A DNA stretch of 32,963 nt from Ectothiorhodospiraceae bacterium (GTDB lineage: Bacteria; Pseudomonadota; Gammaproteobacteria; Nitrococcales; Aquisalimonadaceae): NCBI GenBank assembly GCA_007125985.1, contig SLCE01000240.1, positions 1 to 32,963 of the forward strand. The letters are read 5' to 3'. Under the pieces are notes generated by a model that was given only the letters and a program-made list of their open reading frames with translations, did no database searches and was not told the DNA's origin. Below, piece after piece: positions 26,209 through 32,963 of this stretch (position 1 is the stretch's first letter; every line of letters starts with the position of its first letter). Made by a program: the position numbers and the translations under genes.

Positions 26209-26304
26209 TGGCGGAAGGGCGTGGGAGTCGAACCCACCAGACGTGCCTGGCACGTCTCACCGGATTTGAAGTCCGGGCGCTCCACCGGGATGCGATCCCC
26301 TTCC
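26209..26304 (-). tRNA. selC: tRNA-Sec (selenocysteine, anticodon UCA)
   Basis: Read on the minus strand, the 96-nt gene starts GGAAGGGGAUCGCAUCCCGG and ends CCCUUCCGCCA, aligning base for base over its first half with E. coli selC. The anticodon stem-loop is CCGGACUUCAAAUCCGG with UCA. The long variable arm has a 7-bp stem (AGACGUG with CACGUCU) and the T-loop is GGUUCGACUCC. CCA is encoded. The eighth acceptor pair, normally C-G, is G against G. It lies 115 nt after selB, so the sel genes form one cluster. Confidence 0.97.
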
Positions 26305-26394: not shown

Positions 26395-26422
26395 ACCATG
26401 GGAATAAGTCAGTGCTTCCTTA
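26395..26422. mobile_element. Solo end of the MITE-like repeat after selB
   Basis: In the minus direction the sequence TAAGGAAGCACTGACTTATT then CCCATGGT follows selB. It matches the ends of the 5512-5674 element with a few changes, mostly transitions. The initial TAA is the selB stop codon. No second end is found nearby, so this is a remnant or a single-ended copy. Confidence 0.6.
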
Positions 26423-28315
26423 GCGCAGGCCCCGCCGTTCGCCGTCGAAACGGGTGATTCCGAGCCGGTCCAGGTGTTCCAGCACCTGTATGGTGAGGTT
26501 GCGGCCGATACCGCTGCGGTCCCGGTATCCGGCCGCATCGAACATGCCTTCCGGCGATTCACGGGACAAGTCCGCGGCAATGCCCGCCAGGGCCTGCACC
26601 GTCTCGGGCAGGAAATAGCGGTTGGGCGCAATCCGCTCCAGATAGCCGAATTGACTGAGCACCTGCAATCGCTCGACGAGTTGCTCGCGCTCCAGCCCCA
26701 GTTGCTCCGCCAGCTCGCCGACAATGGGTGGCCGCAGACCGGCTGCCTGCAACACGGAACGCACCCGGGCAAGCAGGGCCGCATCCTCTGCCTCCAGTCG
26801 CGGCGTGTGATCGGGCCGCCGCAGGCTGAAGCCCTGTCGGGTCAACTGCCCTTGGTCCAGCAAGGCGCGGATAATCGCCCGCACCAGCGGTGCGGACAGT
26901 TCGCGCCCGAGGCGGGTGCCCAGGCCCGCTTCCCCGGGCCCGATGCTGGCGGGCTGTGCCTGGTGCCAACGATCAACCGCGTCCCTCACCTGGTCGCAGC
27001 CTGCCTGCCACTGCGCGTGCCCGATCAATAGCATGCCCGCGCGTGTGGTGATGCGGAGGGCGTTCGCCGACTCCGCCAGCACCTGCGTCTGCTCCGGCGT
27101 CAGGTTGCGAGAGCGGCTGAAGTCCGGCATGAAGACCCCGGTCAGGCTCTGATCCAGCGCGGCCTGCAGCGCTTTCGCGTGATCAGCCGTGTCCAGTGCC
27201 CTGAGCAGAGCGAGGCGTTCCGGACGGCTGCGACCGCGACGGGCCGGCTGGGGGTCGATGACCAGCCCGCCTCCCAGCGTGCGTCGGGCGGACTGGTCGC
27301 GGACAATGAATCGGTCACCCTGTACGGCATGGATCGGGCGATCCAGCACCAGTTGGGCGAGCCCCGGCATTCCCGGCGCAAGCTCCCGTTGCCCCAACAG
27401 GGCCACGCGGGCCGGGACGTCGACCGCGCCCAGGTGCAGGTGGACCGGAGTCCAGTGCTGTAGTGGGCGGCTTTCCGACGCACACAAGTGTATGTTGACA
27501 TCCAGGCGTTCGCTTACCAGGTTGGCCGGACTCTCAACCACCCAGTCGCCCCGCCGGATGCTGTTCCGGTCGAGTCCGCTGCCCGCAAGGTTCAGTGCGC
27601 ACCGTTCGCCGGCGAATACCTGTTCCCGGGGTTGTCCTTGGCCATGGATGGTCCGCACGCGCACCGGCATTCCGGCCGGTAGCAGCATCAGCTGGGTGCC
27701 TGGCCGCACGCTGCCCGCAAAAGCGGTGCCGGTGACCACCAGGCCCGCGCCGTCCACGGTGAAGGAGCGGTCCACGGCCAGGCGGAAATTGCCCTCCCGT
27801 GAACGCCAGGGCATCTCCGCGCTGCGTTGTGTCAGGTGGTGTCGAAGCGCCTCGACGCCGCTATCGGTTTGCGCCGAAACCGGGAATACGGGGGCGGAAC
27901 GCAACGGGCTGTCGGCCAGTAGTGATGCCACTTCATCCGCTGCCTGATCCAGGCGCTCCCCGCTGACTCGATCCGCCTTGCTCAGTGCCACCGCGCCATG
28001 GCGCAGACCCAGCAGTTCCAGGATTGCGAGGTGTTCCCGGGTTTGCGGCATGGGGCCATCGTCGGCGGCAACCACCAGCAGCACAAAGTCCACCGCAGCC
28101 ACACCGGCCAGCATGTTGCGAATAAAGCGCTCATGGCCTGGCACATCCACGAAGCCGATGCGGCGCCCGGAAGGCCCGTCAATATAGGCAAAGCCCAGAT
28201 CGATGGTCAGCCCGCGGCGTTTTTCTTCCTCTGTGCGATCAGTGTCGATGCCGGTGAGTGCCCGCACCAGCGCGGTTTTCCCGTGATCCACATGGCCTGC
28301 TGTGGCGATAATCAC
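26420..28315 (-). CDS. selB: Selenocysteine-specific elongation factor
   Basis: SelB carries Sec-tRNA to the ribosome at UGA codons marked by a SECIS hairpin. The 631-residue protein begins with an EF-Tu-like GTPase (P-loop GHVDHGKT at 7-14, DVPGH, SKAD), followed by beta-barrel domains (about 170-340) and a long C-terminal part (about 370-631) made of winged-helix repeats that bind the SECIS RNA. Length is near that of the E. coli protein. The GTG start overlaps the selA stop (GTGA), so translation is coupled. The stop TAA lies in a MITE-like repeat end. Confidence 0.97.
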   Translation of the reverse strand: MIIATAGHVDHGKTALVRALTGIDTDRTEEEKRRGLTIDLGFAYIDGPSGRRIGFVDVPGHERFIRNMLAGVAAVDFVLLVVAADDGPMPQTREHLAILELLGLRHGAVALSKADRVSGERLDQAADEVASLLADSPLRSAPVFPVSAQTDSGVEALRHHLTQRSAEMPWRSREGNFRLAVDRSFTVDGAGLVVTGTAFAGSVRPGTQLMLLPAGMPVRVRTIHGQGQPREQVFAGERCALNLAGSGLDRNSIRRGDWVVESPANLVSERLDVNIHLCASESRPLQHWTPVHLHLGAVDVPARVALLGQRELAPGMPGLAQLVLDRPIHAVQGDRFIVRDQSARRTLGGGLVIDPQPARRGRSRPERLALLRALDTADHAKALQAALDQSLTGVFMPDFSRSRNLTPEQTQVLAESANALRITTRAGMLLIGHAQWQAGCDQVRDAVDRWHQAQPASIGPGEAGLGTRLGRELSAPLVRAIIRALLDQGQLTRQGFSLRRPDHTPRLEAEDAALLARVRSVLQAAGLRPPIVGELAEQLGLEREQLVERLQVLSQFGYLERIAPNRYFLPETVQALAGIAADLSRESPEGMFDAAGYRDRSGIGRNLTIQVLEHLDRLGITRFDGERRGLR

Positions 28316-29709
28316 GGGCGCGACAGCTCCATGAACTGGGCGCGGAAGCGGTCCTCGTCCTCCAGGCAGCGCATATCCAGCAGTACGGCGCCGTTGGCAA
28401 TGCGACCGATGACGGGCATCGGCAATTGACGCAGCCGTTCGGCAATGGCCCGGGCCGAACGGCCCGGGTTGCGCCCGCCGGCTGGTTGCAGCCGCAAGGC
28501 ATGGCTGGGGAGTAGATCCACGGGCAGTGAGCCGCTGCCGATCTGGCTATGGACGGGCACCACGTCCACCCGGCCCTCGTTGCCCAGCCAGTCGGCGACA
28601 ATGGGCTGTAGGCGTTGCGCCTGATCCGCGATGGAATCCGCCGCTCGCGACAGCAGGCGCAGGGTGGGCACGCGCTCCGCCAACCGGTCCGGATCCGCAT
28701 ACAACCGCAACACAGCTTCCAGCGCCGCCAGCGTGACCTTGTCGCAACGCAGGGCGCGCTTCATGGGGTTGCGGCGGATGCGTGCCACCAGGTCCGCGCG
28801 GCCCACGATGATCCCAGCCTGCGGGCCGCCCAGCAGTTTATCGCCGCTGAAGGTGACCAGGTCGACTCCATGGGCCAGGGCATCGGCGGGTGTCGGCTCG
28901 GCCGGCAGCCCGAACCGACGCAGGTCGGTCAGCGTGCCGCTGCCCAGGTCCACCAGGAACGGGATATCGTGTTCGTGGCAGAGCCGGGCCAGCCCGCCCT
29001 CGTCGGCTTCAGCAGTAAACCCCTGGACCTGGTAATTGCTGGTGTGGGCCTTGAGCACCAGCGCGGGGTTTGCATCGCCCATGGCGTCAGCGAAATCCCG
29101 CAGATGGGTGCGATTGGTGGTGCCAACCTCATGCAGCCGGCACCCTGCGCGGCGCATGATATCCGGCAACCGGAACGAGCCGCCGATCTCGATCAGTTCC
29201 CCGCGCGAGACCAGGACCCGGCGGCGCAAGGCCAGGCTGTTCAATGCCAGCAGCACCGCGGCCGCATTGTTGTTGACCACGGTGGCGGCTTCAGCGCCGG
29301 TGAGCCGGCACAGCCAGCCTTCCACGTGGGCATCCCGGTCGCCGCGTCGGCCGTGGCGCAGATCATATTCCAGATTGGATGCGCCAGAGGCGGCCTGGGT
29401 CATGGCGGCAATAGCTTCGGGCGGCAGCGGGGCCCGACCCAGATTGGTATGCAGCACGGTGCCGGTCAGATTGAAGACGGGTTGCAGCGAGGGCGCCAGC
29501 ACGGCCCGGACGGCATCGTCGACAGCCGTGGCGATGGTGGGCGCATCACAGGGGATATCGCCCTGGCGGCAGCGCGACAGGGTGTCACGTACCGCCTCCA
29601 GCACCAAGGGCCGGCCATGCGCTTCAGCCAGCGCCGTGATCGTGGACCAGTTCAACACCCGGTCCACCGACGGCGGTTGGGGGCGGTGCCCGGTGGGCGG
29701 GACACTCAC
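28312..29709 (-). CDS. selA: L-seryl-tRNA(Sec) selenium transferase
   Basis: SelA is the PLP enzyme that turns Ser-tRNA(Sec) into Sec-tRNA(Sec) with selenophosphate. The 465-residue protein has the PLP lysine K291 in the SGDKLLGGPQ motif, close to K295 of the E. coli enzyme, and the family segments NLGRAPLP and NNNAAAVLLAL. The GTG start at 29709 has AGAGGG upstream, but both start and SD lie in a 15-bp hairpin. selD, which makes selenophosphate, is not in this window and must be elsewhere. Confidence 0.97.
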   Translation of the reverse strand: MSVPPTGHRPQPPSVDRVLNWSTITALAEAHGRPLVLEAVRDTLSRCRQGDIPCDAPTIATAVDDAVRAVLAPSLQPVFNLTGTVLHTNLGRAPLPPEAIAAMTQAASGASNLEYDLRHGRRGDRDAHVEGWLCRLTGAEAATVVNNNAAAVLLALNSLALRRRVLVSRGELIEIGGSFRLPDIMRRAGCRLHEVGTTNRTHLRDFADAMGDANPALVLKAHTSNYQVQGFTAEADEGGLARLCHEHDIPFLVDLGSGTLTDLRRFGLPAEPTPADALAHGVDLVTFSGDKLLGGPQAGIIVGRADLVARIRRNPMKRALRCDKVTLAALEAVLRLYADPDRLAERVPTLRLLSRAADSIADQAQRLQPIVADWLGNEGRVDVVPVHSQIGSGSLPVDLLPSHALRLQPAGGRNPGRSARAIAERLRQLPMPVIGRIANGAVLLDMRCLEDEDRFRAQFMELSRP

Positions 29710-29742
29710 GGGCGCACCCTCTGGTTGTGCGCCCGTGAGTGT
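29702..29742 (-). promoter_or_regulatory. 15-bp perfect hairpin covering the selA start codon
   Basis: Arms 29702-29716 and 29728-29742 are perfect complements around an 11-nt loop. In the mRNA the loop holds AGAGGG, the apparent SD of selA, and the 3' arm holds the GUG start codon. No U-tract follows, so it does not look like a plain terminator of the UGSC gene, which ends 7 nt before it. In E. coli a SECIS-like hairpin in the selAB leader is known to bind SelB and damp expression; a similar role here is inference. Confidence 0.75.
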
Positions 29743-29748
29743 TGGCGG

Positions 29749-30276
29749 TTAGCTGCCCGCCTGCAGGGCGTCGAGGATTGACTCCAGGGCCTGATCCGCC
29801 AATTGGCGCAGTTCCTCGTCCGTCCGGTCCTGAATCGGATGGGCGACGAACACCATCGCCGGGTCGAAACCCAGCGACCGGCTTTGCATGGCCGCTGCCT
29901 GGACGAATTCCGTGGACGCAATGCCAACTCCGGGGATGCCTCGGCCTTCGAGGTCTGCGATGTCATGCATACAGCACGACGTGCAGGAGCCTCAGTCAGC
30001 CAGGCCTTCCACCACCAGATCGCATTCCGCCGCGATCTGCTGCCGCAGATCAGTCGGGGCGACCCGGGTGAATGTGGGTTTGCGGTAGCGCCGGACCTGG
30101 ATGCCCTGGGCCTGCAATCGGGTATCGATGTGATCGAGGAAGACATCGCCTCGGGCCTTGGATATGTCCAGCAGACCCACGGTGAGCCCGTCCAGACTGT
30201 CTGGGCGGGGCACCCGGGCGCGGGCCGCCGCGGATCTCTCCGCCGTGGGGTCCAGCAGATGTGTGGCTGCCGTCAT
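29749..30276 (-). CDS. UGSC-motif selenoprotein (in-frame UGA = Sec95)
   Basis: Two open frames, 30276-29992 and 29991-29749, are in the same frame and divided only by TGA at 29992-29994. Read as selenocysteine, the junction is LAD-U-G-S-C-T-S-C-C-M-H-D, the signature of the UGSC (seleno)protein family, whose Cys forms occur in other bacteria. The total length is 175 residues. The part before Sec has an alpha/beta look (VGLLDISKARGDVFLD) and the part after it is a short helical domain. Its function is not known; U-G-S-C suggests a redox or thiol-transfer site. ATGA overlap with the preceding gene shows coupling. Placement beside selA, selB and selC supports Sec decoding. Confidence 0.9.
29974..29994 (-). 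promoter_or_regulatory. Possible SECIS hairpin of the UGSC gene
   Basis: After the TGA a small perfect stem, GCAC with GUGC, closes a GUC loop about 11 nt downstream. The loop begins with G as bacterial SECIS loops do, but the stem is only 4 bp and is a little close to the UGA. A second stem, CCUCG with CGAGG, starts about 38 nt after the TGA. This is a weak call compared with the GrdB-like gene. Confidence 0.35.
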
Positions 30277-31709
30277 CCGTTTATCTCCTTGGTTACTGGT
30301 GTGGAGCCCACCGGGCCGGAAGCGGCCCAGCCGGCTATCACCGCGGAAAACAGGCCGGCGGTACCGCCGGCCCGAACGATCAGTAATCCGCCGGGGCGGA
30401 ATTTGGGAATCTGTTTGCCGGCCGCACTGGGTGGCAGGCCTTCGGCAATACCGTCAGCCCCGGCCAGGAGTTCATCGCCCGGGCTGAGCAGGAGTTGCTC
30501 CAAATCTTCCCGCAGTCGCTGCCGCGACCAGCCGGCCTGGCTGAACACACGATGGTGTTCCGGCGAGACCACCAGGACGGCGTCGCCAGCCATGGCCAGC
30601 TTGGTGTTGTCCACGGCGCGCAGGGAATTGGCAAAACTGCGCGCCAGTGATTCCGGCGTACGGGATTTCTGGTCGACGATACCCTGCACACCCTCGCCGG
30701 CGAACAACGTGACGGTGGACGTGTCCGGTGCAAAGCCGCGTTCTGTTGCCAGGGAACCCCAGTCGCTGTCTTCCGCCTCGGCGAAGCAGAAAGTGTATTT
30801 TCCCGGCGTGCCCAGCGTGGCGCGGTCGATCTCTCCGGGGCGTCCACCGCCCACGTTCCTGATCACCAGTTGCAGCGCACGCCCGATCGTCGCGTTCGCC
30901 CGGTTTCCCTGCCCCAGGGCGTTGACTCCGGAATTCATGCCAATGGCACGGCTGATGGGGCCGTTGACGATCACCATGGGGCCGGCAAACATGGTGGTGC
31001 ACAGGATGCCATGCATGCCGAAATCTTCACTGAGTGCGGCCTCGACTGCGGCAATGACCACGGGCAGATACTCGGGCTTGCAGCCGGCCATGACCGCGTT
31101 GACGGCAACTTTTTCCACAGTGCAGGGAACCAGGTCCGGCGGGATGTCCCCAAGGACCTCATCCGGTGCGCGCGTCGTGCCCTGCAGCATACGCAGAACA
31201 CGCTCCCGCGTGGGCGGAACCACGGGTAATCCGTCCGTCCAGCCGCGCTCGAAACAGGCCTCCATGACGTCCTCGGCATCGCCGAGCTCGATCTCCCGGG
31301 AGGCAAGGCTGCCGTGGTCGAACCGGGCGGCGAGTTTCTCCGGCATGCCCGGATCCTGGGTTTTCGATCCGCAACCGGGCCGGGTTTCCGGCAGGTCCGC
31401 GCCCAGGGGCTGTTGGCCGCTGAGGGCTTCCCAGTCGCCCCGGTGCCAGCCGTAGGTGCGTTCCACCTCACGGCCGTCTTCCACCCGGATCAGGGTGGGC
31501 ACGATCTCCACCTCCAGCCGCCAGGACTGCTCCAGCGTTTCATCATGGATGACGCGTGGCAGGCCAGCGCCGTAATCCGGGTCGTCCTGGCTGTACACGG
31601 TCAGCGGCAACGATCCCTGCGCGAGTTCATGCAGCACGGGCTCAATCAGCGCACAAGTGGGGCACTCACGCTTGGCGATTATGATAAGGCCGTCAGGCAG
31701 TTCCGGCAC
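30273..31709 (-). CDS. Thioredoxin-like domain fused to an uncharacterised domain, partner of UGSC protein
   Basis: The 478-residue protein has an N-terminal thioredoxin-like region (about 1-100) with a redox C16-P-T-C19 motif after a hydrophobic strand (LIIIAKRE) and an IVPTLIRV segment carrying a likely cis-proline. A linker (GCGSK) follows. The C-terminal about 350 residues, with WTDGLPVVPPTRERV, PCTVEKVAVNAVMAGC and GPISRAIGMNSG segments, form a large domain that I cannot assign. It is not a membrane protein. The GTG start has AGAGG upstream. The stop overlaps the UGSC start (ATGA), so it is probably the electron donor or scaffold for the selenoprotein; this is inferred from position. Confidence 0.8.
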   Translation of the reverse strand: MPELPDGLIIIAKRECPTCALIEPVLHELAQGSLPLTVYSQDDPDYGAGLPRVIHDETLEQSWRLEVEIVPTLIRVEDGREVERTYGWHRGDWEALSGQQPLGADLPETRPGCGSKTQDPGMPEKLAARFDHGSLASREIELGDAEDVMEACFERGWTDGLPVVPPTRERVLRMLQGTTRAPDEVLGDIPPDLVPCTVEKVAVNAVMAGCKPEYLPVVIAAVEAALSEDFGMHGILCTTMFAGPMVIVNGPISRAIGMNSGVNALGQGNRANATIGRALQLVIRNVGGGRPGEIDRATLGTPGKYTFCFAEAEDSDWGSLATERGFAPDTSTVTLFAGEGVQGIVDQKSRTPESLARSFANSLRAVDNTKLAMAGDAVLVVSPEHHRVFSQAGWSRQRLREDLEQLLLSPGDELLAGADGIAEGLPPSAAGKQIPKFRPGGLLIVRAGGTAGLFSAVIAGWAASGPVGSTPVTKEING

Positions 31710-31800
31710 GCGTCAGTCCTCTATCAAAGAATAAGCGATGTGCTCAAAGAGTATCACATGCTTGTGGGTTCATCGGCCAAGTTCTCCGATACCACATGTT

Positions 31801-32940
31801 TCACAAGCCGAGGCGTTCCCGCTGCTCTGCGGGCACCAACTGGCCGGTTGCCACCATTCGCAGCAACTTGTCGTCCGACACCATCATCTTGGACCGCAGC
31901 CGGATCAGCAGTTTTCCCGCGGCGGTGGTGTCCCAGAACCAGCGCTGCAATTGACGGCTGGACGGTCGCCCCTCTGCAGCGGCTGCCTCGAGATAGTGAG
32001 CCTTCAGGTCGTCCGCCGCCAGCCGCATGGCCATGGCCGGATGCTGTCCCGCTATCGGGCTCTCCGGCGGTGTCCCGGCCGCCATGGCCTGGAGGAATTC
32101 AGCGATGCCCGCAAGCGATAACCCGCTGTTTCCCACAGTTGTGCGCCCCCGCCGGGCCGTGGCCCGATGGTAGGCAGGAGCGAGCGCCCGCAACTCCGCT
32201 GCCAGCGCTTCCGGTGTTCCGGCCGCATCCGGAGATGCGGTTGACTCCGTGGCTAATCGCGGTGGTTGCCAGTCCGGATCATCGGCAAATCCGGGCGCCT
32301 GCGGCGCAAAGTCTGCGATATGCCGGGGGCGGCGGACATCCTCCAGAAGCTGCAGTGCCGTGCTGAGTACCTGCCGTTGAAACACGGGGTCTTCCGGCTC
32401 TCCCAGCGGGCGGCCTAACTCAAAGGGAACCCAAAGTGTACGCGGCGGCAGCATCCGCTCAGTATGTGGGCGAAACAGGCTGATACAGACCGTAGCAATG
32501 CCGGCCGCTTCCAGATAGTGCCCCAGCGCGCTCACGGCGCGCGTGCAATGGGGTCAAACAGGGAGCAGAACGGCGGCACTGATGCCCTGCTTGTGGAGAT
32601 CCCGCGCCAATTCTTCGGCGTAGGGCTGCATCAGTTCCGGATCGGTTGCACCCATGAAGCTGTAATGGGTGTCGGCCGCGTCCGCAATCATGCCGTCCGC
32701 TGCCAGTTCTTCCAGGCGCTGGCGCGGAAGGACCACTTCCACGTCCTGCTGGAAGCCTGTTCGGTCGAAATTCACCGACACGTGCGTCATCAGCAAGTCA
32801 GTGTCGCCGATTCGTGGTCCGATCCGGCGAAAATCCCGCGCGTTTGGTTTGAACGGTGGCTCTCCCCTGACGCTCAACCCCGCTGTGGATATCAGTGTGA
32901 CGGTATGATCCGTCATCGGCGCCGGTGGCACTAAGGCCAC
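31801..32940 (-). CDS. Glycine/sarcosine/betaine/D-proline reductase B-like selenoprotein (in-frame UGA = Sec)
   Basis: Frames 32940-32557 and 32553-31801 are continuous except for TGA at 32554-32556. Read as Sec, the junction is AVLLPV-U-P-H-C-T-R-A-V, the U-x-x-C site of the GrdB/PrdB family, whose anaerobic members cleave glycine, sarcosine, betaine or D-proline. Upstream features also match: HVSVNFDR, LPRQRLEEL and ADTHYSFMG. The C-terminal 250 residues form an extra domain beyond PrdB-like length. Start is either GTG 32940 (379 residues, Sec129) or ATG 32916 (371 residues, Sec121). I favour ATG (MTDHTVTLISTAGL), although neither has a clear SD. Function in this organism is unknown. No GrdA or GrdC is visible, so it is not a standard glycine reductase. 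Confidence 0.88.
32521..32556 (-). promoter_or_regulatory. Bacterial SECIS element of the GrdB-like gene
   Basis: Immediately after the UGA, CCCCA pairs with UGGGG and, after a 6-nt bulge, GCGCGC pairs with GCGCGC, closing the apical loop CGUGA. The loop lies 17-21 nt after the UGA and holds a G-U pair of bases, as expected for SelB recognition. The spacing, loop size and stability fit the bacterial SECIS model. It supports reading the TGA as Sec. Confidence 0.8.
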
Positions 32941-32956
32941 CGGCGCCGATGACGGA
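32909..32956 (-). promoter_or_regulatory. 21-bp perfect hairpin over the start of the GrdB-like gene
   Basis: Arms 32909-32929 and 32936-32956 are perfectly complementary around a 6-nt loop. The candidate ATG start (32916) lies within the stem and the alternative GTG (32940) at its other arm. It could be an upstream terminator with the real start further in, or a translational control hairpin. The window ends just beyond it, so the upstream gene cannot be seen. Confidence 0.7.
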
Positions 32957-32963
32957 CAGGATA

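Follow-up and report, generated by a model that had tools for sequence, protein, structure and literature searches.

Glycine reductase component B and PrdB of D-proline reductase (TIGR01917, TIGR04483 and PF07355) share a type of selenocysteine (Sec) domain in which U-x-x-C is followed by 'GIPxVxI' and an 'HPI'-like segment, and a domain apparently of this type also occurs at the locus described here. The UGSC family (NF041046/PF24696) is known from the Global Ocean Sampling study as 'UGSC-containing' proteins; passages of that study place UGSC among the most abundant selenoproteins of aquatic metagenomes, suggest a thioredoxin (Trx)-like fold and report a UGSC/Unknown_1 fusion, and the main-text passages found say nothing of an operon, a link to Trx or homology with GrdB (PMC2398784). 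In published reviews, UGSC appears among the redox-type selenoproteins whose role is unknown (PMC13188914), and in the literature searched we found neither a published function or partner for it nor a paper using the phrase 'UGSC family'. The third system of comparison, thioredoxin/thioredoxin reductase, resembles the locus in its C-x-x-C Trx domain, here fused to a domain that we named MID, and in the trxB/trxA genes beside Trx-less homologues; it differs in that Trx here seems dedicated to one enzyme pair through fusion to the partner domain. What is new is MID as the fixed partner of UGSC, bringing or recruiting its own Trx, and the pair appears to form a novel reductase that is a distant relative of glycine/proline reductase. 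In contrast to GrdB and PrdB, UGSC is single-domain and has MID as its partner, and neither the GrdE/PrdA pro-protein nor GrdA was found in searches whose positive controls were also silent. UGSC becomes a testable enzyme system now that it has a constant partner, a probable source of electrons and a tie to the Sec domain of GrdB/PrdB. The pair also offers a possible reason for Sec use where genomes have no amino-acid-fermenting reductases.

The window, that is the whole stretch of DNA analysed, comprises 32,963 nucleotides of an Ectothiorhodospiraceae contig. All three open reading frames (ORFs) of the preliminary description, together with the two in-frame UGA codons and the ATGA overlap that it claimed, are present on the minus strand; that description had left out the selA, selB and tRNA-Sec genes directly downstream. 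The features of the locus are as follows:

31801..32916, minus strand: GrdB/PrdB-like selenoprotein, long form; ATG at 32916, stop at 31801
32554..32556, minus strand: in-frame UGA of the GrdB-like gene; Sec in V-U-P-H-C-T (UPHCT)
30273..31709, minus strand: Trx-MID fusion protein, 478 aa; ATGA overlap with the UGSC start
31410..31709, minus strand: thioredoxin-like domain with CPTC (C16, C19); model match to thioredoxins
30276..31334, minus strand: MID domain, about 353 aa, partner of UGSC; no Pfam/NCBIfam model
29749..30276, minus strand: UGSC-family selenoprotein, 175 aa; NF041046 and PF24696
29992..29994, minus strand: in-frame UGA of UGSC, read as Sec (U95); motif ADUGSCTSC, with UGSCTSC at residues 95-101
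29947..29994, minus strand: this UGA and the directly following hairpin, bacterial SECIS-type; shuffle comparison
28312..29709, minus strand: selA, directly after the UGSC gene
26420..28315, minus strand: selB, after selA
26209..26304, minus strand: tRNA-Sec, anticodon UCA, after selB

The ATGA overlap lies at 30276-30273 and is repeated in four relatives (L023, L024, L026 and L049). Numbered from the ATG at 32916, the Sec of the GrdB-like protein is residue 121, and 47 bp of contig remain upstream of this start. The contig end itself (32917-32963) is an inverted repeat with arms of about 22 bp and a loop of 6 nt that overlaps the GrdB-like start and looks like a fold-back assembly artefact; a GTG start at 32940 is unreliable because it falls within this palindrome. 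At 31725-31800, in the gap that separates the GrdB-like gene from Trx-MID, CATGTGRTA occurs twice as a direct repeat, the copies about 40 bp apart, possibly as a regulator site dividing the GrdB-like and Trx-MID transcription units. A scan for promoter and terminator consensus sequences gave no match above chance.

The Trx-MID protein matched no Pfam or NCBIfam family, and its MID part, of about 350 aa, appears to be a previously undescribed domain. To follow this domain, the part of the protein outside Trx was aligned and the alignment scanned against a collection of 84,980 species genomes. This gave more than 550 MID relatives, of which the 80 best loci were fetched; these come from Gamma-, Beta-, Alpha- and Deltaproteobacteria, Acidimicrobiia, Chloroflexi, Acidobacteria, Gemmatimonadetes and others. 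By profile searches with UGA read through, UGSC was detected in 77 of these 80 best loci, in 72 of them no more than 400 bp from MID. Of the other three loci, two stop at a contig end just past MID, and L099 is the sole unexplained case. Conversely, all loci found starting from UGSC also carry MID. Single-polypeptide UGSC-MID fusions occur as well (L004, L175, L087, L180 and L172), the Sec UGA being the only in-frame stop in L004 and L175, and L173 is a diverged fusion. The UGSC/Unknown_1 fusion reported in passages of PMC2398784 is probably the UGSC-MID fusion of L004, L175, L087 and L180. The pairing of MID and UGSC as a conserved two-part functional unit is thus well supported by sequence comparison.

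Two branches of the family deserve separate mention. On haloarchaeal plasmids (L169, L176, L177 and L181), UGSC-MID pairs occur in the Cys form, and in some of them a single UGSC stands between two MID copies. In Vibrio and Sporomusa, UGSC-MID fusions (L172:8407-10092 and L173:8320-10044) adjoin aconitase X and DUF126, and MGTS replaces UGSC, so that this branch seems to have lost its redox site. Because of this replacement and the loss of MID cysteines in some fusions, part of the family is probably not redox-active.

Within MID, C210 and C308 are both kept in 99 of 108 copies, the losses lying mostly in fusions plus a few others, and D159, R170, E199, R277, D295 and E311 are also conserved. 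The predicted Trx-MID model (pLDDT 91) contains a thioredoxin domain that matches thioredoxins, and the C-x-x-C of this domain is kept in 80 of 81 homologues, the remaining one being masked. The Trx domain had no Pfam match at E 0.01, and the search by sequence for relatives of solved structure gave weak thioredoxin matches and nothing beyond. As for the kinship of MID, homology with GrdB was unsupported (hhalign E 0.012-0.33) and PrdA/GrdE gave no Pfam match even at E 5. A class I fumarase was also rejected: Foldseek gave E 1e-3 but with a TM of 0.24 and an rmsd above 11, and there was no Pfam match; the predicted fold weakly recalls that enzyme, which is a lead only.

The UGSC protein of the window is a clear family member, scoring 160.6 bits over the full model NF041046 (cut-off 125) and about 161 bits against PF24696 (cut-off 25), and it carries the (U/C)-G-S-C family motif. 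Its predicted structure (pLDDT 95) is a flavodoxin-like sandwich of five strands in which Sec begins the helix following the strand at residues 87-93, rather than the Trx fold considered before. UGSC itself had no PF07355 match and stayed below the GrdB/PrdB cut-offs. At family level, the GrdB model TIGR01917 matched the Sec region of 36 of 46 UGSC members (best E 8e-6). Alignment of the UGSC and GrdB-like profiles with hhalign gave E 2e-5 and a probability of 76% over 104 columns with the U-x-x-C motifs superposed, and E 0.009 when the long GrdB-like family was used alone. These comparisons suggest remote homology of UGSC with the GrdB/PrdB Sec domain.

Nearly all of the best 80 MID loci have Trx fused to MID. 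TrxB-type genes within 2.5 kb were found at 8 of 20 Trx-less MID loci and at none of the 80 Trx-fused ones (Fisher p 7e-7, shared ancestry ignored), leaving 12 of the 20 Trx-less loci with no TrxB in that range. The order is trxB-trxA-MID-UGSC in an Arthrobacter operon and MID-UGSC-trxB in Roseovarius, and in Variovorax a trxB lies slightly upstream. Taken together, the gene arrangements argue well for Trx supply to MID-UGSC, either by fusion or by a nearby trxB. The electron relay from Trx to UGSC proposed in the preliminary description therefore gains support from the Trx fusion and from trxB/trxA beside the Trx-less homologues, with a direction and chemistry that would be those given below.

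Neighbouring genes bear on the substrate. Trx-less MID paralogues sit among CoA-transferases, TRAP/TTT/TAXI transporters, aconitase X, LysR regulators and acyl-CoA enzymes, and the Trx-fused clade often neighbours thiolase, acyl-CoA dehydrogenase, MaoC, flavin reductase or branched-chain ABC transporters. No substrate-defining neighbour conserved across all lineages was found. In a gammaproteobacterial group of nine loci (L038, L041, L046, L050, L056, L059, L069, L095 and L097), thiolase lies directly downstream of UGSC and a small membrane-type protein without a Pfam match directly upstream of Trx-MID.

We consider it probable that Trx-MID and UGSC are two subunits of a thioredoxin-driven oxidoreductase acting in carboxylate or acyl reduction, with the GrdB-like gene independent of them. 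Pairing, fusions, Trx supply and Sec coding enter this model from sequence comparison. We infer from them an electron direction in which NADPH would reduce thioredoxin reductase, thioredoxin reductase the Trx domain (CPTC), and the latter a U95/C98 selenenyl-sulfide of UGSC. MID would bind and activate the carboxylate or acyl substrate, a class favoured because carboxylate transporters, CoA-transferases, acyl-CoA enzymes and aconitase X surround the paralogues, because acyl-CoA enzymes also neighbour the Trx-fused clade, and because the predicted MID fold has its weak resemblance to class I fumarase. The Sec selenolate might then attack a C-X bond of the substrate in the manner of glycine/proline reductase and be regenerated by C98 and Trx, and the GrdB-like gene would be an independent selenoprotein placed by the same sel cluster. 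More tentatively, and with less than even chances in our judgement, MID-UGSC could be a pyruvoyl-free, thioredoxin-dependent counterpart of glycine/proline reductase that cleaves C-X bonds in bacteria (Sec form) and haloarchaea (Cys form) and is one main reason why many aquatic bacteria keep the Sec machinery.

Other readings of the pair start from the same features. A thiol antioxidant or repair system reducing peroxides, disulfides or sulfoxides, instead of a metabolic C-X reductase, would suit a Trx domain joined to a Sec/Cys pair, the MsrA gene in the same window and the grouping of UGSC with redox-type selenoproteins in reviews (PMC13188914). However, UGSC combines a flavodoxin-like fold with a GrdB-type Sec domain and is not of a peroxidase fold, and many lineages have catabolic genes around the pair (CoA-transferase, acyl-CoA dehydrogenase, thiolase and TRAP/TTT transporters), which makes this reading unlikely. 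Rather less likely still is that MID-UGSC is mainly a carboxylate lyase, isomerase or dehydratase whose Sec/Cys and Trx only protect or regulate the active site. The weak resemblance of MID to class I fumarase and the fused members beside aconitase X in which MGTS replaces the redox motif would fit such an enzyme, but the fumarase match has that low TM, almost every member of the Trx-fused clade retains Sec, and trxB/trxA tracks the Trx-less redox forms.

A further alternative enlarges the thioredoxin-driven oxidoreductase to three components, with Trx-MID feeding both UGSC and the U-x-x-C site of the GrdB-like protein. The GrdB-like gene scored 22.2 bits against PF07355 (GRDB; gathering cut-off 22), over the C-terminal part of the model only, and 84.6 bits against the PrdB model TIGR04483, below the equivalog cut-off of 300. 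The three genes are in tandem and co-directional here, and among 50 pair-bearing genomes about 16 have the long GrdB-like form, which is missing from all 298 other genomes in a phylum sample. Against a shared relay, the GrdB-like gene adjoins MID-UGSC at none of the 80 best related loci, the adjacency being confined to this window; 19 stretches fetched around GrdB-like homologues held no MID and no UGSC; and a GrdB-like homologue is present anywhere in 26 of the 50 pair-bearing genomes but has no match in the other 24. The co-occurrence of the GrdB-like gene with the pair is real but confounded, since shared Sec dependence, as well as habitat, can account for it. Moreover, in genome G546 a GrdB-like gene adjoins selA, suggesting that both selenoprotein units are drawn to sel clusters. 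We therefore regard the three-component relay as very doubtful. On the surveys of the 80 loci and 19 stretches we reject a three-gene operon, and the trio most likely consists of two selenoprotein units, independent of each other, that lie next to one sel cluster. The preliminary description had proposed a three-gene system and chosen a co-occurrence survey as the test that could refute it; in the survey, the Trx-MID and UGSC pair holds together, whereas the trio largely does not, so the three-gene system is not borne out. Its suggested relay from Trx to the GrdB-like U-x-x-C is likewise unsupported because the trio largely fails to co-occur. On the other hand, its remark that glycine reductase partners are absent agrees with our searches: PF09338 (GrdE/PrdA pyruvoyl pro-protein) had no match in the window's own genome or 27 others and PF04723 (GrdA) none in the own genome, the positive controls being silent too in both cases.

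Sec use by UGSC is well supported. The UGA codon is found in nearly all UGSC members, with the Cys form in L019 and L102 within the Trx-fused set. Over 80 sequences, the hairpin after the UGA surpasses its synonymous-codon shuffles in average stability (mean z -1.26), and because an in-frame UGA and a similar hairpin recur across many phyla, this UGA is not there by chance. The two selenoproteins announced for the window accordingly agree with the in-frame UGA codons, the SECIS-type hairpin, for which the shuffle comparison refers to UGSC, and the sel genes in the genome. In Blastococcus (L040:11332-11334) and Geodermatophilus (L080:11332-11334), both Geodermatophilaceae, UAG stands at the UGSC Sec codon and the hairpin is kept. 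Sec insertion at UAG in this family was reportedly described by Mukai and co-workers in 2016.

The Sec form also depends on sel genes, as had been expected: selA was above the cut-off in 48 of 50 genomes, one exception (L102) carrying the Cys form and the other (L046) being a short-contig MAG. Sel genes adjoin the pair in L017, L024-L028, L075, L077, L078 and L094; selA/selB flank it on differing sides across several lineages, with tRNA-Sec alongside in several. Since the pair is co-located with selA, selB and tRNA-Sec in the window, it may be a main reason for keeping Sec here. No selD was above the cut-off in the window's own assembly despite selA, selB and tRNA-Sec, the search returning only an ORF that by eye looks ThiL-like (L022) and a single weaker match. 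In most close relatives selD was found elsewhere in the genome, and its absence here is probably an assembly gap. In addition, a strong GC-rich hairpin (CACTCACGGGCGCAC...GTGCGCCCGTGAGTG) at 29705-29745 spans the junction between UGSC and selA together with the start of selA. Hairpins of different sequence occupy the same junction position in L024, L026 and L028, and these structures may exert a SECIS-like control of selAB translation.
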